NCBI GenBank assembly: GCA_023248395.1
Contig: JAHFEQ010000005.1
Span: 1 to 42,237, forward strand
DNA: 42,237 nt
Reading direction: 5' to 3'
Origin: Nitrospirota bacterium
Lineage (GTDB): Bacteria; Nitrospirota; 9FT-COMBO-42-15; HDB-SIOI813
Shown piece after piece: positions 5,792-15,987 of this stretch (position 1 is the first letter of the stretch; the number at the start of each line of letters is the position of its first letter). The translations under genes were made by a program, and so were the position numbers. The notes beneath the pieces are model-generated. The model did no database searches, was not told the DNA's origin, and worked only from the letters and a program-made list of their open reading frames with translations.

Positions 5792-6364
5792 ATGAAATTA
5801 ACCTTCAACAGTACAGTCTCTTTGGCAATATTTACTATTGTTTTAAGTGTAGTCCTAAGTGTTGGCTTTTTTCTCCAGCATACTTTGGCTGAGAATAAAA
5901 GTTATGATTTAAACTTAGGAGTACAGGAATATTCCGGCCCCGCTGAGGCGATAGATTTTACACTAAAGGATATAGATAACAAGAAGGTTACTTTAAAAAA
6001 CTACAGGGGCAAGATAGTCATGCTTAATTTCTGGGCTACCTGGTGTACACCTTGCCGTATAGAAATGCCATCCATGGAGAAATTACATCGACAATTCAAG
6101 GATAGGGGACTTGTTGTTTTAGCGGTGGCCTCTGGTGAAAATGCAGAAAGTGTAAGTACATTTGTTAAAGAGCATAAAATAACATTTTCTGCTCTTTTGG
6201 ATTCTGATCAGGAGGTAACAGACGATTATAAAGTCTGGGCTCTCCCTACCACGTATTTTATCAACGCTGAAGGTAAGATAATAGGGAAGGTTAATGGGAG
6301 CAGAGACTGGAGTGCAAAAGAGGCAACTCAGTATATTTCATCCATTTTCCAGGCATCTCTGTAA
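5792..6364 (+). CDS. TlpA/ResA-family membrane-anchored thioredoxin
   Basis: A 190-aa thiol-disulfide oxidoreductase with an N-terminal anchor or signal segment (residues about 8-30) and a TlpA-type thioredoxin fold. The active site FWATWCTPC has Cys85 and Cys88, and the cis-proline loop LPTTYF follows. It probably acts on the periplasmic side, reducing apocytochrome c or other cysteines. It resembles the ResA at 26428 but lies far from that operon and beside a Met-rich Spy-like protein, so it may serve a different client or metal stress. The start is an ATG with only a weak upstream ribosome binding site. Confidence 0.9.
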   Translation: MKLTFNSTVSLAIFTIVLSVVLSVGFFLQHTLAENKSYDLNLGVQEYSGPAEAIDFTLKDIDNKKVTLKNYRGKIVMLNFWATWCTPCRIEMPSMEKLHRQFKDRGLVVLAVASGENAESVSTFVKEHKITFSALLDSDQEVTDDYKVWALPTTYFINAEGKIIGKVNGSRDWSAKEATQYISSIFQASL

Positions 6365-6430
6365 TAGCTGCGAACGTACCAGCGATTAGGCTGTCTACTT
6401 AATCATAATAATTTACAAAGGAGGCAGAAA

Positions 6431-7051
6431 ATGGGACGGAAAGGATATATGTTTTTAATTGTAGTGATTGTATCTATCTTTGGTAGTAGTAGAATGGCGA
6501 TAGGTCATATGGGTAATGCATATGAATCCCATAGGATGGGGAGCGAGATGAAGGAAGAGTCATGCATGAAAGGGTCTGATATGATGAAGCACAAGATGGG
6601 TGAACCTATGATGAAGGAAGGCATGGGGATGGGCATGCGTATGGGTACGGATATGCCTAAGATGTACCCTTGGGGATACCTGAAAGAGAGTCTCAAATTA
6701 ACAGAAGAACAGGACAAAAAACTTGGCAAGGTTTATTCTGATTATAGAAAAGAGATGTTGAAGAAAAAAGTTGACGTAGAGATTGCGGAGATGGAGCTCA
6801 CGGAATTGTTGAAAACGAAAGAAGCTGACGTGACTGCGATAGAGGAGAGTGCTAATAGGTTGGAGTCGTTAAGATCTGACCTTAATATGGCCAGGGTTAA
6901 GGCACTTTTGAAGACAAGGGAATTTTTATCAGATGAACAATATGAAGATCTATCAGGTTTTATCCTTGAATGGATGAGAGGATGGAGGAGACCTCATCAG
7001 ATGGGAGGGGCAGGCCATGAGTGTATGGATGAGATGATGGAATGCAGGTAA
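6431..7051 (+). CDS. Met-rich Spy/CpxP/ZraP-like periplasmic protein
   Basis: A 206-aa exported protein with an N-terminal signal segment (about 1-26). A segment very rich in Met, Gly and His follows (about 27-80, repeats such as MGMGMRMG), then a helical domain with LTxxQ-type motifs (LKLTEEQ and FLSDEQ), and a Met/Cys/His-rich tail. LTxxQ helices are the signature of the Spy/CpxP/ZraP family of periplasmic chaperones and metal sensors. The Met/His-rich ends suggest Cu(I), Ag(I) or Zn binding; this is inference. It has an excellent ribosome binding site (AAAGGAGG). It is followed 9 bp later by the UbiB-like gene and preceded by a TlpA thioredoxin. Confidence 0.8.
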   Translation: MGRKGYMFLIVVIVSIFGSSRMAIGHMGNAYESHRMGSEMKEESCMKGSDMMKHKMGEPMMKEGMGMGMRMGTDMPKMYPWGYLKESLKLTEEQDKKLGKVYSDYRKEMLKKKVDVEIAEMELTELLKTKEADVTAIEESANRLESLRSDLNMARVKALLKTREFLSDEQYEDLSGFILEWMRGWRRPHQMGGAGHECMDEMMECR

Positions 7052-7060
7052 AAGGACACA

Positions 7061-8737
7061 ATGCCATTTTACCATTTCAGGCAGACATATAGAGACTTAC
7101 AACGTGTTCGCCAAATCTTAAATACCCTCATAAAATATGGCTTTGGCTATGTGGTAGAGAGATTAGACCTGCAGGGATATATCCCTTTAGGTAAAAGACT
7201 ATTTAGAATTTCCAAAAGAGAGTCAGTTCCTAAGAATGCTGCTGAACAGTTCAAGCTTGTTCTTGAAGAGCTTGGTCCTACGTTTATAAAATTTGGACAG
7301 ATATTAAGTCTGCGGCGGGATATCTTATCTGAAGATTTCATCAAAGAATTAGAAAAACTGCAGGACGATGTCCCACCCTTTCCTGCAGAGCACTCCTTAC
7401 AAGAAATTTTATCGCAACTTGGAAAACCAATAGAGAAACTTTTTGCATCCTTTGATAAGAAACCCCTTGCTGCCGCATCTATTGGGCAGGTCCATAAGGC
7501 AAAATTATTCGATGGGAGAGATGTAGTAGTTAAAATACAAAGACCTGGGATTCGGGAGACTGTAGAGACAGACCTCAATATTCTAATGAATCTGGCAAGG
7601 CTGTTAGAGAAATATATGCCAGAGGCTAGACTATACGATCCTATTGGCATGGTAGAGGAATTTGCGAAATCTATACGCAGAGAATTAGACTTTAGGATTG
7701 AAGGTAGGAGTGCAGACAGGTTCAGGGAGATATTTAAGGGATCCAAGACCGTATACGTCCCGGAAGTTATATGGGAACTTAGTGGAATGCGTGTCATTAC
7801 GATCGAGTATGCCGTGGGGAAGAAGGTTACGGAGGTAGGCGGAGATATTCAATATCGGCACAATTTAGCAAAAAATTTTAATGAATCTTATTTAATTCAA
7901 ATATTTGAATATGGTTTTTTTCATGCGGATCCCCATCCAGGCAATATTTTTATTCTTGATGACGGGCGTATCTGTTTTCATGATTTTGGCATCATGGGGT
8001 ACCTCGATGATGAGATGGCAGATAATTTATCTGGCCTGTTTCTGGCCTTTATGGATAAGGATATTGGAAGGATGATGGATGTATATCTTGCGATAGGTAT
8101 ACTCACTGGTGATGTTAATACGAAGGCTCTTAAAAGAGACATTAGGGATTTTTTGGAGAGATATTACGGAATTCCTTTGAAGGAATTCTCTTTCGCTGAG
8201 TTTACGGAAGGTCTTATATCTATAGGGAGACGTTATCAGATAAAGGCCCCTACAGAATTACTCATGTTTGGCAAGACCTTTATGACGGTTGAGTCTATAG
8301 TAAGGATCCTGGACCCTGAGTTTAATCTTGTGGAGAATATCAGGCCATATACCCAGGTCTTGTTAAGGAAGAAGCTCTTTGACCCATCCAGAATTTACAG
8401 GGACTTAATGAAAATCGGTATGGAAATAAGCAGCATTCTTCGAACACTTCCTCATGACCTTCATAATATCGTGCGGCATCTTAAAGAAGGCCGTATAGAG
8501 ATAGATGTTAAGCATGATAAACTTGAAGATTTAGAGCGGCATATAGATAAGGCCAGCAACAGATTATCCTTTAGCCTCGTCATTGCTGCAATTATAGTAG
8601 GTTCTTCTATTATCATGCAGACTCAGATCAGCCCGCTTATGTTAGGGTTTCCTATAATAGGTGTTATTGGCTATCTTGTAGCCGGTTTCTTAGGGCTATG
8701 GCTTGTATGGGCTATACTTAGATCAGGCAGACTGTGA
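7061..8737 (+). CDS. AarF/UbiB-family atypical kinase
   Basis: A 558-aa member of the ABC1/UbiB family. Visible motifs are KFGQ at 77-80, the A-rich loop AAASIGQ at 137-143 that replaces the kinase P-loop, a likely Lys158, HADPHPGN at 288-295 and the metal-binding DFG at 308-310. Two transmembrane helices end the protein (about 500-555). UbiB proteins support quinone biosynthesis or lipid-soluble precursor handling through ATPase activity. In a probable menaquinone organism the exact role is unclear. The start ATG has an AAAAGGA site. The gene converges on purC; a short GGCA/TGCC hairpin lies between the two stops. Confidence 0.93.
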   Translation: MPFYHFRQTYRDLQRVRQILNTLIKYGFGYVVERLDLQGYIPLGKRLFRISKRESVPKNAAEQFKLVLEELGPTFIKFGQILSLRRDILSEDFIKELEKLQDDVPPFPAEHSLQEILSQLGKPIEKLFASFDKKPLAAASIGQVHKAKLFDGRDVVVKIQRPGIRETVETDLNILMNLARLLEKYMPEARLYDPIGMVEEFAKSIRRELDFRIEGRSADRFREIFKGSKTVYVPEVIWELSGMRVITIEYAVGKKVTEVGGDIQYRHNLAKNFNESYLIQIFEYGFFHADPHPGNIFILDDGRICFHDFGIMGYLDDEMADNLSGLFLAFMDKDIGRMMDVYLAIGILTGDVNTKALKRDIRDFLERYYGIPLKEFSFAEFTEGLISIGRRYQIKAPTELLMFGKTFMTVESIVRILDPEFNLVENIRPYTQVLLRKKLFDPSRIYRDLMKIGMEISSILRTLPHDLHNIVRHLKEGRIEIDVKHDKLEDLERHIDKASNRLSFSLVIAAIIVGSSIIMQTQISPLMLGFPIIGVIGYLVAGFLGLWLVWAILRSGRL

Positions 8738-9715: not shown

Positions 9716-10879
9716 CTATTCCTTATTCACTGACATGGCCTCTATCAGTATCTTTGCCACCTCTGGACGTGAGAATTCAGGCGGAGGGGTAACACCATTT
9801 TTCAGCATCTCACGGACCTTTGTCCCTGAAAGGGTCACATGCTCACTTGAGTCATGGGGGCAGGTTTTGTATGATGCCATACTTGTGCAACGTTTGCAAT
9901 AGAAGGTGTGGTCAAAAAACATGGGGGTTATCCCAAGCTCTCCATCTTCGAACTCATCAAAGATATAGTGGGCGTCAAAAGTCCCATAATAGTTTCCTAC
10001 GCCGGCATGGTCTCTTCCCACGATAAAATGGGTACAACCATAGTTTTTCCTGCAAATTGCGTGGAAGATAGCCTCTCTTGGTCCTGCATATCTCATAGCG
10101 GCCGGAAAGACGGCCAGGAAAGTACGATCTTTTGGATAGTAGTTTTCAAACAGGGCCTCATAGCAACGCATTCTGATTTCAGCCGAAATATCATCACCCT
10201 TTGTAGCACCCACTAAAGGATGTACAAGGAGACCATCCACAATCTCAAGCGCAGATTTCTGTATATACTCATGGGCACGGTGAATCGGATTCCTTGTTTG
10301 AAATCCTACAACACGCTTCCACCCCTTTTCCTGGAAGATCTTCCTTGTATCAGCCGGGTCAAGACGATACTGAATAAAGTCTTTATGTCTTGGTCTGTGG
10401 AAGAGGCTTATCTTCCCACCGATAAGGATAGGCCCAGAGTCATAGAGTTGTTTTACTCCGGGATGTTCCGGGCTGTCAGTTTTATATACCTCTATTGCCT
10501 CCTTTTCCTTATCATGTGAGTAAATATCTTCTATTAACATCACGGCGAGAGAATTCCCTTCCCCGTCAACTAAGGCTACCTCTTCTTTCATAGATAGGTC
10601 GTTAGCCGTCTCCTCTTTTACAGAAAGGGTGATCGGGATAGACCATGGAAGACCGTTGGCCAGACGCATGGTGTCCACAACAGTATTATAATCATCCCGG
10701 CCCATGAATCCTTCCAATGGACTCATAGCGCCTGTGGCTATCATCTCGAGGTCTGAGATTTCCCTCTTATTTAATTGAAGCTTTTTTAATTCCTTTGCCT
10801 TTAACTCTGATAGTTCACGGTCTTTACCCCGCAGTATCCGGTTGATCAATTTGCCGCCATGTGGTATGGAATGTAGCAT
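9716..10879 (-). CDS. sat: ATP sulfurylase (sulfate adenylyltransferase, Sat type)
   Basis: A 387-aa homo-oligomeric Sat that interconverts sulfate plus ATP with APS plus PPi. The HxGH-type motif is [11 protein letters not shown] (Gln194, His200, His203), and the second nucleotide motif is GRDHAGVG (288-295). Cys328, Cys331, Cys340 and His342 match the zinc site of bacterial and archaeal dissimilatory Sat. There is no APS kinase domain. The ATG has a strong ribosome binding site (AAAAAGGAGGAT). It is the last gene of the Rrf2-aprA-aprB-reductase-sat run, 32 bp after the reductase. The preceding gap contains AATCATATAAAAA, shared with the leaders of aprB and of the gene at 34139. Confidence 0.96.
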
Positions 10880-10911: not shown

Positions 10912-13281
10912 TTATGCCTTTTCTATAACAATCCTGTAATGCTTATCTTCTACCTTCTCTTCCTCGAGTATCTTATGCCCTTCATTAAGGACACTCCGCG
11001 GGACGTTCTGGTAAGGTTCTCCATCATCAACGATAATTTGCAGTATCTGACCTGCATCCATCTCCTCTAATTTCAACTTTGTCTTTACAAAGTTATAGGG
11101 GCATGCCACGCCCTTTAAGTCTAAGTAGGCATCTATCTTTTTCTCCATGGGTCTTTCTACCTCCTCTTTTGATTCCTTCTCTTCTCTTTTCCTGAATTTA
11201 AAGTCTTTATCAAGCTGATTATAAGCCTCCTGAGATTCTCTTGCCAGAATCTCAGCGAGTATTATTCTCTCTTTAACTTTATCTTTTGATGCTGGCTTGC
11301 CATACTCAGTAAATAATGGTTCAACCCTCCCTGACACAATACACTTATCTATGATCTTATCCTGAAACTCCCGTATAAGTTCACGCTCCACCTCGGTGTC
11401 TATCCCAAAGGGGACCAGCATGCCTTTAGAGACAGATATTATTGCCCGCTCAACCCGCTTGAGCGATTCTTCGGTCTGACCGGCTTCAAAGAGCATGGCA
11501 GCCTCGGATACCTCACGGCTGCCAGTAAGGAGGCAGTCTTCAATTAAATCGACCACTCCGCCTGCACACTCCCCGGCCCCAAGTTTTACAACAAAATCTG
11601 TCTTAGAACCCCAATCATAATAGCTTTCAGAAGATTCTGTAAATGATGGAATGGTGGTATGTTTCTCCAAAAGCCCCTGGACATAATCTAATCCCACTCT
11701 TTCAATATACTGATAGAACAGCTCCCCCGGCAGTTGTTCCTGTTGATAGAGAGAGACAAGTTCTGATATGGCACCTGGTATATTCCTGGCCGGAAGCTTT
11801 ATATTTGAATCTCCAATGACGGCACGGCCTTTTCCAATGCCACCCCTGAGATGCAGTTGATAGTGCGGGACAAGCCGTCCTTCTATCTTCTTTGCCACAC
11901 CATGAAAACCAATATCAGCTATGTGATGGTGACCGCAGGAATTAGGGCATCCACTTACTTTTATCTTAACATTTTCAACCTCAGCATCCTCTCTTGTGCT
12001 AAGTTCTTTACCAATGGCAAATGCTAACTGTCTCGATGATGTTAGTCCCAGATTACAGGTCTCCGCACCAGGGCAGCTCTGAATATCAATCATCTTTCCG
12101 GCGCCAGCCAGGGCCATTTCCCCCTCTTTTAATGCCTTATACAGGTCGTGGATGTCTTTGTCCCGCACCCATCGCATAATAAAGTTTTGCTGTTGTGTTA
12201 CTGTGATGCTGCTATTCGCATATTTGGCTGTAATACCCGCCAGCCTCCTGATCTGATCTGTAGTAATATCTCCCATCACCAGACGGACACTCACTGCGTT
12301 ATATCCATCCTGTTTTTGTTTAAGGACATTTGTACGATGCCATCTGTTAAAATATGGATCGCCAGAACCACTTGACTCTGTTTGGTCAGATGCTATATTG
12401 CAGCCTTGTGGAGCTGTATCGCCTGTTGGTAGGGTAAGAGACCATGTTCTTGAGGTCTTAAGGATGTTAAATTCCTTCATAATTCTTTTCTTAAGTTCCT
12501 CAAAACCAATTTTTTCCAGCAAAAATTTCATCCTGGCCCTGCTCCTGTTTTTTCGCTCCCCAAATTGATCAAAGACTCTTAAAATAGCCTCAGATAGTGG
12601 TATAAGATCTTCTTGTGGTACGAACTCATACAGTAACTGCGCTATCCTAGGATGAGGTCCGAGGCCGCCTGCAACATAGACCCTAAAGCCAAGTTTCTCA
12701 GTTCCATTACCCCCCCCTTTTACGGCTATAGCGCCTATATCATTAATGGGTGCCATCGCACAGTCTTGAGAACATCCAGAGAAGGCTATTTTGAATTTCC
12801 GTGGAAGGCTCTGACACACTGGATTTCTCAAAAAATATGAGGTTGTAAGTTTTGCATAAGGGGACACATCGAATGCTTCATCAGGGCAAATACCTGCTAA
12901 ATAGCATCCTGTAACATTTCTGACAGTATTACCGCATGACTCTCTTGTTGTGAGTCCGACCTCTGCAAGGAGCCGCATAACAGTTGGTACATTTTCTAAC
13001 TTAACCCAGTGAAACTGTATATCTTGTCTGGAAGAGGTGTGGGCTATGCCAGTTGAGTATTTATCGCCGATATCTGCTAACCTTCTAAGATGTTCAGGGT
13101 TCAGTGTACCCTGCGGTATCTTGACCCGCACCATGAAATCTTCTTTCTGGCGCTGGCCGTAGATACCCTGTTGCAGCCTAAACCTTTTGAACTTATCCTC
13201 AGGGATTTCACCCTGTTGCAGCCGACCTATTTCTTTCTCAAAGGCCGCAATCTCTTCAAGTACAGAGGGGGGTATATTCAT
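10912..13281 (-). CDS. Siroheme sulfite/nitrite reductase with C-terminal helical region and TusA domain
   Basis: A 789-aa protein. Residues 1 to about 540 form a ferredoxin-type sulfite/nitrite reductase with two ferredoxin-like/haemoprotein halves. The second half has the complete siroheme-[4Fe-4S] site: Cys403 and Cys409 in SCPGAETC, Cys445 and Cys449 in SGCPNSC. The first half also retains cysteines (116, 126, 170, 174). Residues about 570-690 are helical, with a LFEAGQTEESLKRVERAI segment reminiscent of HEPN-like tails on some sulfite reductases. After a charged linker, about 714-789 is a TusA/SirA domain with the persulfide motif GVACPYN (Cys727). It presumably reduces sulfite to sulfide and may load sulfur onto its own TusA domain. 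ATG with AGGAG 10 nt upstream. The substrate (sulfite or nitrite) is not settled by sequence; the aprAB/sat context favours sulfite. Confidence 0.9.
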   Translation of the reverse strand: MNIPPSVLEEIAAFEKEIGRLQQGEIPEDKFKRFRLQQGIYGQRQKEDFMVRVKIPQGTLNPEHLRRLADIGDKYSTGIAHTSSRQDIQFHWVKLENVPTVMRLLAEVGLTTRESCGNTVRNVTGCYLAGICPDEAFDVSPYAKLTTSYFLRNPVCQSLPRKFKIAFSGCSQDCAMAPINDIGAIAVKGGGNGTEKLGFRVYVAGGLGPHPRIAQLLYEFVPQEDLIPLSEAILRVFDQFGERKNRSRARMKFLLEKIGFEELKKRIMKEFNILKTSRTWSLTLPTGDTAPQGCNIASDQTESSGSGDPYFNRWHRTNVLKQKQDGYNAVSVRLVMGDITTDQIRRLAGITAKYANSSITVTQQQNFIMRWVRDKDIHDLYKALKEGEMALAGAGKMIDIQSCPGAETCNLGLTSSRQLAFAIGKELSTREDAEVENVKIKVSGCPNSCGHHHIADIGFHGVAKKIEGRLVPHYQLHLRGGIGKGRAVIGDSNIKLPARNIPGAISELVSLYQQEQLPGELFYQYIERVGLDYVQGLLEKHTTIPSFTESSESYYDWGSKTDFVVKLGAGECAGGVVDLIEDCLLTGSREVSEAAMLFEAGQTEESLKRVERAIISVSKGMLVPFGIDTEVERELIREFQDKIIDKCIVSGRVEPLFTEYGKPASKDKVKERIILAEILARESQEAYNQLDKDFKFRKREEKESKEEVERPMEKKIDAYLDLKGVACPYNFVKTKLKLEEMDAGQILQIIVDDGEPYQNVPRSVLNEGHKILEEEKVEDKHYRIVIEKA

Positions 13282-13307: not shown

Positions 13308-13691
13308 TTAGATAGAAAAGTCTACTGCTGCCACGCCTTCTATCTTTTCATCAAGCTCTACCGGAAGCACCTTTGTCCGTATAGTAAAATTGTCTATAGC
13401 GCCCTCGGTATCGATAAGCTCCCATGTTATAAAATCCCTTGTGTCGTGTATATGAGGAAGCAATCTTGCAGTATGAAATCCCAGTTGATAGGAGAGCCTG
13501 AATTCTATAGCCTCCTGCGGGCATACTTTTACACAGGGTAGACAATCCCAGCATTCTGCCGGATCTCTCATAAGGATCTTTCCCGTTTTTGGGTCTTTCA
13601 TTAGAAGGTCCCCCGGGCACATTCTCACGCACGGTGGGTTATGTGATCCATGACATGTATTGCATTTGTCTGCATGTACAACTACTGGCAT
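13308..13691 (-). CDS. aprB: Adenylylsulfate reductase beta subunit
   Basis: The iron-sulfur subunit that passes electrons to the flavin of AprA for APS reduction to sulfite and AMP (or the reverse). Two [4Fe-4S] motifs are visible: KCNTCHGSHNPPCVRMCP and CWDCLPCVKVCP. The Trp between clusters (CW) matches the conserved AprB tryptophan. The start is set at the ATG at 13691, which follows GGGAGGA; an upstream in-frame ATG at 13733 lies in the leader hairpin and is unlikely. At 127 aa the protein is shorter than typical AprB (about 145-165). The C-terminal tail that embraces AprA looks divergent. It lies between aprA and the reductase. Confidence 0.93.
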   Translation of the reverse strand: MPVVVHADKCNTCHGSHNPPCVRMCPGDLLMKDPKTGKILMRDPAECWDCLPCVKVCPQEAIEFRLSYQLGFHTARLLPHIHDTRDFITWELIDTEGAIDNFTIRTKVLPVELDEKIEGVAAVDFSI

Positions 13692-13714
13692 CTTTCTTCC
13701 TCCCTTTTTTATAT

Positions 13715-13740
13715 GATTCCAGAGATTAATCACTGGAATC
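13715..13740 (-). promoter_or_regulatory. Leader hairpin between aprA and aprB
   Basis: GATTCCAG and CTGGAATC form a perfect 8-bp stem with a 10-nt loop, ending about 23 nt before the aprB start and followed by ATATAAAAAAGGGAGG. The same stem and surroundings recur at 34066-34113 before another gene. It may set aprA/aprB stoichiometry, protect or cleave mRNA, or simply be a repeat; the sequence alone does not say which. Confidence 0.6.
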
Positions 13741-13769: not shown

Positions 13770-15488
13770 TTACCTTGGTTTATACCTGTCCCCAGGGACT
13801 ATCTGTTCATAAGGCCTTGTGAATACCTCAATATTTCCTGTGACAACATCCCTTCTTGAGTTTACAAATTTGAGCCACTGCTCGTCATCTCTCTCAGTAT
13901 AGTCTGTCCGGGTACAATATCCAGGCCATCTGGTTTCCTTTCGATACAACATGTGTTCCACAAGGGTCTGGGCAACATAGACCCTGTCTATTACCTCATG
14001 CGCCTTCATAAGTTCATGAAGCTCTTCTGCTATAAGGTGTTTAAATTGGTCTGGCAGTGTAGAGAGGCGTCTTTTAGCTACATGGAGTCTCTCCTCGCTG
14101 ACTTCATAAAAGGTTGCCGCTCCCCCTGCATATTCCTCCATGATCTTCTGGAGTCTGACCTCCATGTCGTAAGGCCTTATTCCATCCTTTTTGTTAGTAA
14201 AGCTAAGAAGTGGAGCAAAGACCCGATTCTGTTCCTCCTCGATAATATCTGCTGGTATTTCCATGAATTCATTCTTCTGGGCATACTCCCCAGCATTCAT
14301 TGCGGCGATGACCCCCTCTGCCCAGCAGCCACTTACAAACTTGTATGGCGCACCACCCGATACGTCGCCCGCTGCATATAGACCATCGAGGGTTGTCTTA
14401 CGGTTGACATCGATCCAATAACCAGACTGGGTGTGTCCCCCTACTATGTAAGGTTCGGTAGTCTGGACTTCAACAGGTTCTTTTGAGGGGTCTATTTCAT
14501 TCGCTGCCCAGTAGAGAACCATGGAAGGATACATGTCAAGGAATGCCGACTTAAGATCTCTTGCCTGTTGAGATGTTATATGACGCGTATCTAAATAGAC
14601 AGGACCGCGTCCCTCTTTTATCTCCTGGATTGGCCCATGTGACCGGTATGGGGTAGGGGCACCGTCTCCCCCGATATGGGCGTATTTCGTCGCCATAAAC
14701 TTCTCTCCCTTTGAATTGATTTGAGGGGCTCCCACACCAAGGGCTATAGTCCCCGTTGGGGCTATTGTATCTTTGACACGCAGACCGATATAGCGCATCT
14801 CAAAACTCGTCATCTCAGCACCGGCCCTTATGCCCATGGCAAATCCTGCGCCTGTGTTATAGGGGCAATACCATGTCTTATGTTGTGCATCGTGAGCATT
14901 GTTTGGTTTATAAATCCCGGCAGCACCGCCCGTTGCGATAATGGTTGCCTTTGCCTTCACTATAAATAGGTTTCCATTCCTTATGCTGACACCAACGGCA
15001 CCTCCGACTTTGCCATCTACGACTAAATAATTGGTAGCCACAACCCAATTTAAAACCTTTGTCCCGGCATTCTTTGCAGCCTTTGCAATAATAGGTTTTA
15101 AAGACTCACCATTGATCTTAATATTCCATCTGCCTCGCGGTATGTAGTTTCCTTTTTCATCACACAGAATAGGGAGGCCCCATTTCTCTACCTTCTTCAC
15201 GCAATACTCGAACAGCTTTGACATACTCAATACGAGATCTTCCCTGATTAAACCACAGGAATCAAATCTGACGTACTTTACAAAGCTCTCAGGGGTCTCT
15301 CCAGGGTTCAGATAGGCATTTATCGCATTCATGCCCCCTGCGAGACAGCCACTCCTGTCAATGTGTGCCTTTTCCATGATAGTGACGCTGAGATTTGGAA
15401 ATCGTTCCCTTACCTCAACTGCAGCTAAACACCCTGCTGTTCCACCTCCTATAATAAGAATGTCTGTCTCAATAATATTCTGCTCCAT
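13770..15488 (-). CDS. aprA: Adenylylsulfate reductase alpha subunit
   Basis: A 572-aa FAD protein of the fumarate-reductase/succinate-dehydrogenase flavoprotein fold that reduces APS to sulfite plus AMP. It has the N-terminal dinucleotide site DILIIGGGTAGCLAA. AprA-like segments follow: NTGAGFAMGIRAGAEMTSFE, GPVYLDTRH, GGHTQSGYWID (a catalytic-region His) and RPYDMEVRLQ in the C-terminal helical domain. Dissimilatory AprA is usually about 610-660 aa, so this is a compact version. The ATG has AAGGAGGGG upstream. It lies 40 bp downstream of the Rrf2 gene and 78 bp upstream of aprB. No qmoABC or aprM is present in the window, so its electron donor is unknown. Confidence 0.94.
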   Translation of the reverse strand: MEQNIIETDILIIGGGTAGCLAAVEVRERFPNLSVTIMEKAHIDRSGCLAGGMNAINAYLNPGETPESFVKYVRFDSCGLIREDLVLSMSKLFEYCVKKVEKWGLPILCDEKGNYIPRGRWNIKINGESLKPIIAKAAKNAGTKVLNWVVATNYLVVDGKVGGAVGVSIRNGNLFIVKAKATIIATGGAAGIYKPNNAHDAQHKTWYCPYNTGAGFAMGIRAGAEMTSFEMRYIGLRVKDTIAPTGTIALGVGAPQINSKGEKFMATKYAHIGGDGAPTPYRSHGPIQEIKEGRGPVYLDTRHITSQQARDLKSAFLDMYPSMVLYWAANEIDPSKEPVEVQTTEPYIVGGHTQSGYWIDVNRKTTLDGLYAAGDVSGGAPYKFVSGCWAEGVIAAMNAGEYAQKNEFMEIPADIIEEEQNRVFAPLLSFTNKKDGIRPYDMEVRLQKIMEEYAGGAATFYEVSEERLHVAKRRLSTLPDQFKHLIAEELHELMKAHEVIDRVYVAQTLVEHMLYRKETRWPGYCTRTDYTERDDEQWLKFVNSRRDVVTGNIEVFTRPYEQIVPGDRYKPR

Positions 15489-15528: not shown

Positions 15529-15972
15529 TTATATATGATACATTACTGTTTTTTCTTGTTCTCTCTTTTTCTTGTACATATCTTCTATACTTACTTTACT
15601 TAACGCACCTGTAATAGCCCTACGAACATCCTCCCATACTTCCTTAACAACGCATCCATTTATCTGAGGGCACTTGTGCTCAAATGCACCATTAGTGCAG
15701 TCCATCGGGGTTATAGGCCCTTCAATTGCCTCAACTATTTGAGCCACACTAATTGTCCTGGGGTCTCTTGACAATACATAGCCACCTTGTGCTCCACGGA
15801 TGCTTTCTACAAGGCCGGCCTTTTTCAGGGATGCCATGACTTGCTCTAAGAATCTCATCGGAATGGCCTGTCGTCCGGCAATCGCCCTTACATGGACGGG
15901 GCCTTTATCGGCATTAAGGGCCATATCTAAGACTGCTGTGATTGCATAGTCACTTTTAACTGAAAACCGCAT
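15529..15972 (-). CDS. Rrf2-family transcriptional regulator
   Basis: A 147-aa winged-helix regulator with the Rrf2 N-terminus (MRFSVKSDYAITAVLDMA), the recognition region LEQVMASLKKAGLVESIRGA and GGY. The three cluster cysteines sit in CTNGAFEHKCPQINGC, with the C-x8-C-x5-C spacing of IscR/CysR-type [2Fe-2S] or sulfur-responsive members. The start is put at ATG 15972 because TAGGA lies 8 nt upstream; a TTG at 15978 is in frame. It is the first gene of the aprA-aprB-reductase-sat run, and its own promoter carries a palindrome. It therefore probably autoregulates and controls sulfate reduction in response to cysteine, sulfide or Fe-S status (inference). Confidence 0.92.
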   Translation of the reverse strand: MRFSVKSDYAITAVLDMALNADKGPVHVRAIAGRQAIPMRFLEQVMASLKKAGLVESIRGAQGGYVLSRDPRTISVAQIVEAIEGPITPMDCTNGAFEHKCPQINGCVVKEVWEDVRRAITGALSKVSIEDMYKKKREQEKTVMYHI

Positions 15973-15987
15973 TTTCAATATCCTACT

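Follow-up and report, generated by a model that had tools for sequence, protein, structure and literature searches.

The window analysed here, a 42,237-nt stretch of a Nitrospirota contig, carries a set of sulfur genes on its reverse strand in the order Rrf2-aprA-aprB-fusion-sat. An Rrf2-family regulator (15529..15978), which lies upstream of the fusion at many loci, is followed by the APS reductase alpha gene aprA (13770..15488; over the cut-off of NCBIfam PRK06854), the beta gene aprB (13308..13733; 68.7 bits to TIGR02060, under the cut-off, plus Fer4 domains), the fusion gene (10912..13281) and the sulfate adenylyltransferase gene sat (9716..10879). The fusion gene, defined from its translation, Pfam and its Nitrospirota orthologues, is a single, unbroken open reading frame of 789 codons (789 aa) with an ATG start and an AGGAG ribosome-binding sequence 8 bases ahead of it.

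Two NIR_SIR_ferr and two NIR_SIR matches were found in the encoded protein by Pfam, together with a TusA match at residues 719-788 (E=1.2e-20), confirming the initial annotation of a siroheme reductase that ends in a TusA domain with its cysteine, Cys727. After the two-repeat siroheme reductase (residues ~1-545) come a tail with the motif GxGECAGG, a helical HEPN-like region (~576-695), a linker and TusA (718-789). On the DNA, reductase half 1 (12457..13161, residues 41-275) was delimited by Pfam and by hhalign comparison with half 2 (11647..12357, residues 309-545); the tail with C572 (11557..11646, residues 546-575), the helical domain (11197..11556, residues 576-695), a flexible, divergent linker (11131..11196, residues 696-717) and the TusA domain with its persulfide-type Cys727 in a CPYN motif (10915..11130) follow on the same strand.

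The three-part fusion is genuine. An assembly artefact, against which the initial annotation had wanted it checked, is ruled out by matches at E<=1e-100 in 174 of the 396 Nitrospirota genomes sampled, nearly all of those listed spanning residue ~3 to 788. Among genomes of the same family with an intact locus, all but one carry the fusion, and that one lacks TusA. The source assembly is 2.0 Mb and 95% complete; the named genomes closest to it are Nitrospirae MAGs, mostly from groundwater. Nitrospirota made up the main sampling, with other phyla sampled through plasmid records only, and a single-sequence scan of genome contigs retrieved close relatives only. Conservation counts refer to an alignment of 52 homologues, with the TusA motif scored in the 50 that have the domain; a chance origin of the cysteine motif is excluded because it is conserved in the 52 homologues. 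Searches of the openly readable literature found no account of a Sir fused to TusA or to HEPN.

The same Rrf2-aprA-aprB-fusion-sat block is shared by other family members and by two further families (L068, L072). In the f9 and f18 genomes, cysH, cysD and cysNC come after the fusion, and at L074 both sat and cysH lie near it, so the position beside aprAB that the initial annotation proposed to survey holds in some lineages and is replaced by cysH/cysD/cysNC neighbours elsewhere. Because of these sat-aprAB or cysH/cysD/cysNC neighbours, the context is assimilatory and not one of energy metabolism. At six of another 17 loci studied, no sulfate-activation genes adjoin the fusion, and three of those six have a DHO_dh-like neighbour. 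In several families a DHO_dh-family oxidoreductase is conserved beside the fusion (L067:5988-7082, L069:5937-7016 and L071:9666-10790), a possible electron-transfer partner. Searches of the window genome found one further siroheme reductase, NirB-like, and no DsrC. Judged from sequence, the fusion would be a variant assimilatory sulfite reductase to which a sulfur carrier is tethered, and reductase activity is predicted.

Cysteine motifs of the two reductase halves

The closest relatives in NCBIfam and the PDB are ferredoxin-dependent assimilatory nitrite/sulfite reductases of the NirA type, such as Mycobacterium tuberculosis NirA (1zj8) and plant Nii, with the NirA family scoring 282 bits, under its cut-off of 523. 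As in the NirA type, the fusion has a two-repeat fold (two NIR_SIR_ferr/NIR_SIR repeats), a CX5C...CX3C motif in half 2, C116 and a sulfite-type K-x-K pocket. The half-2 ligands C403, C409, C445 and C449 are present in 52/52 homologues and fit the CX5CXnCX3C motif of PMC10229431, and the catalytic-type residues R85, R121, K162 and K164 of half 1, likewise 52/52, form the pocket that serves the half-2 site. Unlike the NirA type, which is described as having one cluster motif only, the fusion also carries four cluster cysteines in half 1, the GECAG tail, the HEPN-like domain and TusA.

When half 1 was aligned on half 2 (hhalign, 99.5%), C126, C132, C170 and C174 matched C403, C409, C445 and C449 one to one, so that half 1 repeats the canonical CX5CXnCX3C motif in full (C126-X5-C132...C170-X3-C174), each cysteine being conserved in 50-52 of the 52 homologues. 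The initial annotation had drawn attention to cysteine pairs 116/126 and 170/174; the positions were right, and the pairing 116/126 was not, as Cys132 had been overlooked and the motif is 126/132 plus 170/174. C116 was rejected as a cluster ligand, being outside the CX5C/CX3C register, separate from the motif and common to NirA. The accompanying claim that classical enzymes lack these first-half cysteines agrees with M. tuberculosis NirA for 126, 170 and 174, the four cluster cysteines being replaced there by S, S, L and A, and falls for C116, which that enzyme shares.

The complete, near-invariant motif makes a second [4Fe-4S] site in half 1, perhaps with siroheme, likely, as the initial annotation had thought possible. 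Since the mirror-image pocket that such a site would use is incomplete, with Q, I, N and K at the counterpart positions, the half-1 site is probably structural or electron-relaying, as in DsrA, and the chain would have a single catalytic site. The four cysteines could alternatively be a decaying relic that has lost cluster binding, a rival to this part of the interpretation only. Stepwise loss among relatives fits decay: three of the four are retained in other Nitrospirota Sir/NirA proteins (the NirA-like L117, L118 and L119, and L113, L114 and L120, in which Asp replaces the fourth), two in Thermus oshimai and none in Bacteroidota and Pseudomonadota relatives, and the L072 homologue has S132 and H174. 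We nevertheless think decay rather unlikely, because the four cysteines are near-invariant (50-52/52) across homologues so diverged that identity in half 2 is down to ~40%.

The fusion also recalls the dissimilatory sulfite reductase DsrAB-DsrC, which likewise has a pair of cluster motifs in each functional unit, one of them probably structural, and a cysteine carrier able to receive sulfur. The fusion differs from that system in being a single chain with the assimilatory Arg, TusA in place of DsrC, no inserted ferredoxin and an assimilatory operon. Membership of DsrAB was rejected on dsrA/dsrB profile scores far below cut-off, no Fer4 in the chain and no DsrC in the genome.

The tail, the HEPN-like domain and the TusA carrier

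The tail cysteine C572 in GxGECAGG is invariant (52/52), and a GECA(G) cysteine also occurs in TusA-less Bacteroidota enzymes (Aureibacter, Persicobacter). These Bacteroidota reductases resemble the fusion in this tail and in a helical domain, with a weak HEPN match in Aureibacter (17.8 bits); they and the Thermus oshimai Sir differ from it in having no TusA and 0/4 or 2/4 of the first-half cysteines. The T. oshimai Sir (L039 plasmid, 5980-7704) ends in LGRGECAV, two residues past the GEC cysteine, which is thus third from the chain end and resembles the terminal cysteine of DsrC. We conjecture that C572 is an intermediate sulfur acceptor.

The helical region appears HEPN-like, without the RNase motif, and the initial guess of a HEPN-like fold gains support by way of homologues. 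The window protein alone had no match to HEPN (PF05168), but in 5 of 10 orthologues tested this family scored above its curated threshold in the same region (26-32 bits), as it did in L068. Comparison with 28 true HEPN proteins by hhalign gave a probability of 90% for a profile of pooled homologues and 6% for the window's own family alone. A model of the domain (155 aa) reached pLDDT 62, with helices 1-2 at 81-91, and in a Foldseek search with it the HEPN structure 2hsb ranked third and 3c18, 4nqf and 1wol came among the first eight, every one at E>0.01. Only L622, G626 and F639 are invariant in the region, and the 52-homologue alignment has no conserved R...H there of the catalytic R-x4-6-H type. 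Beyond it, the linker varies from 20 to 47 residues among homologues and is unconserved (21% Ala, 14% Pro), unlike the TusA domain, which is conserved as strongly as the reductase.

The usual TusA motif is CPxP; in the fusion family, all 50 homologues that have the domain show CPxN. Divergence of the Sir and TusA parts is correlated (r=0.95). Natural variants nonetheless show that covalent linkage of the two is not essential: TusA is cleanly absent ahead of sat in a close relative, 72% identical (L011:1501-3633/L034), and is split off as the next open reading frame at L071:7227-9662. L068:3556-6243, on the reverse strand, has two tandem TusA domains in the fusion, and such loss, splitting or doubling is as expected of a separable carrier. 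Elsewhere in the window genome, a standalone CPVP TusA adjoins a DsrE-family gene (L122:8187-9177, contig C108), a separate sulfur-trafficking locus.

Proposed sulfur hand-over and competing explanations

A second pairing of sulfite reductase with TusA was found in AsrC-like single-repeat enzymes (~385 aa) with an inserted 2x[4Fe-4S] ferredoxin. In five genomes (L128, L129:2970-4124 on the reverse strand, L130, L131 and L132) these carry a fused C-terminal CPxN TusA, and in six more TusA is directly adjacent, so all 11 genomes of the close class have the linkage; no TusA lies within 1.5 kb of more distant AsrC-like proteins. A PALP-family cysteine synthase sits beside three of the fusions (L128-L130), with a JAB protease also beside L129, and L133 and L134 have the order Rrf2-Sir-TusA-CysH. 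Like the window fusion, these are siroheme reductases with a C-terminal CPxN TusA; having one repeat, a ferredoxin insert and no HEPN-like domain, they represent a separate fusion. This recurrent linkage, with its cysteine synthase neighbours, is the strongest of the comparative evidence and points to hand-over of the reductase product to TusA.

A candidate destination lies on another contig of the window genome (C26, L173:2112-6666), where a ThiS-CysK-ThiF/ThiS-NIL-ThiF-JAB cluster looks like parts of carrier-protein-dependent cysteine synthesis and one ThiS-like carrier ends in GGCV. The ThiF proteins of this genome match the ThiF domain only, and because no rhodanese domain was found in them they would need an outside sulfur donor.

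Hydrosulfide and a thiol give no persulfide without an oxidant, so transfer would have to take place at the zero-valent level or onto a disulfide (e.g. C572-C727); DsrC takes sulfur from DsrAB at the zero-valent level. Of the initial proposal that the sulfide product passes directly to TusA, the hand-over itself is thus backed by the comparative evidence and sulfide as the transferred species is not, as it would require an oxidant. Direct production of zero-valent sulfur by four assimilatory Sirs, a claim made in one recent paper, and a preference of cysteine synthases for persulfide have been reported (PMC13188885, 2026); according to the same source there is so far no evidence for DsrC in assimilation.

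Our preferred reading, which we hold to be somewhat the more probable account, is an assimilatory sulfite reductase with a built-in sulfur acceptor. Sat and AprAB would make sulfite for the fused reductase, which would reduce it at the one catalytic siroheme between the half-2 ligands and the half-1 pocket (R85/R121/K162/K164), while the second [4Fe-4S] of half 1, perhaps with siroheme, would be a retained structural or relay site comparable to the structural one in DsrA. Borne by the HEPN-like module on its flexible arm, TusA would dock at the siroheme channel, where Cys727 would take zero-valent sulfur as persulfide, perhaps through C572, and pass it to cysteine synthesis through the ThiS/ThiF/CysK/JAB cluster. 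The roles of acceptor, relay and persulfide transfer are deduced here from motifs and gene neighbourhoods, and a full-length AlphaFold2 model from six sequences was of low confidence (pLDDT 42, pTM 0.28). Taken together, the arrangement suggests that sulfur is handed over directly rather than released as toxic sulfide. In its strongest form the enzyme would be a single-chain assimilatory counterpart of DsrAB plus DsrC, with two siroheme-[4Fe-4S] sites (one structural) and a relay from C572 on the core to Cys727 on the mobile TusA arm that would take sulfur off as zero-valent persulfide or trisulfide, free sulfide never being an intermediate between sulfate and cysteine; this version we offer tentatively and regard as doubtful.

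The chain might instead be an ordinary sulfide-releasing assimilatory reductase whose TusA does not take the product and is tethered for sulfur delivery in Fe-S or siroheme upkeep or for persulfide buffering. Its complete aSir-type active site (R121, K162, K164), the TusA-less L011 and split L071 forms, the standalone CPxN TusA near tetrapyrrole genes in families f9 and f18, and the ordinary CysK genes also present in the window genome, which could use free sulfide, are all compatible with this explanation. The separate recurrence of Sir-TusA linkage beside cysteine synthases speaks against it, as do the fusion loci looked at, near which no isc/suf genes were noticed in an unsystematic look, and we judge it unlikely. 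The pathway could also run in reverse, with a TusA-persulfide oxidised by the reductase to sulfite, from which AprAB and Sat would make ATP. In sulfur oxidisers TusA supplies the DsrE/DsrC route and the reverse Dsr pathway, and the window order Sir-AprAB-Sat could serve an oxidative chain, but the genes beside orthologues, CysH and CysD/CysNC, are those of reductive assimilation, the Arg at the DsrA Thr position marks the assimilatory type, and the genome has no DsrC, all of which makes oxidation improbable.

It has recently become a matter of dispute whether assimilatory Sirs let sulfide go free or pass zero-valent sulfur on (PMC13188885). An assimilatory reductase with a built-in acceptor, as preferred here, bears on this question, since the fusion family, found in nearly half of the Nitrospirota genomes sampled, offers a naturally occurring reductase to which a persulfide-type carrier is already tethered, and its TusA-less, split and double-TusA variants make the question testable in one protein. 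In fused assimilatory Sirs one site has been kept and the motif of the other lost, according to PMC10229431, and in the evolutionary model of that study the half-1 motif of the fusion would be the stage expected as a two-site ancestral duplicate gave way to the one-site enzyme of today. With its TusA domain, the family also fits the gap left by the lack, so far, of evidence for DsrC in assimilation (PMC13188885).
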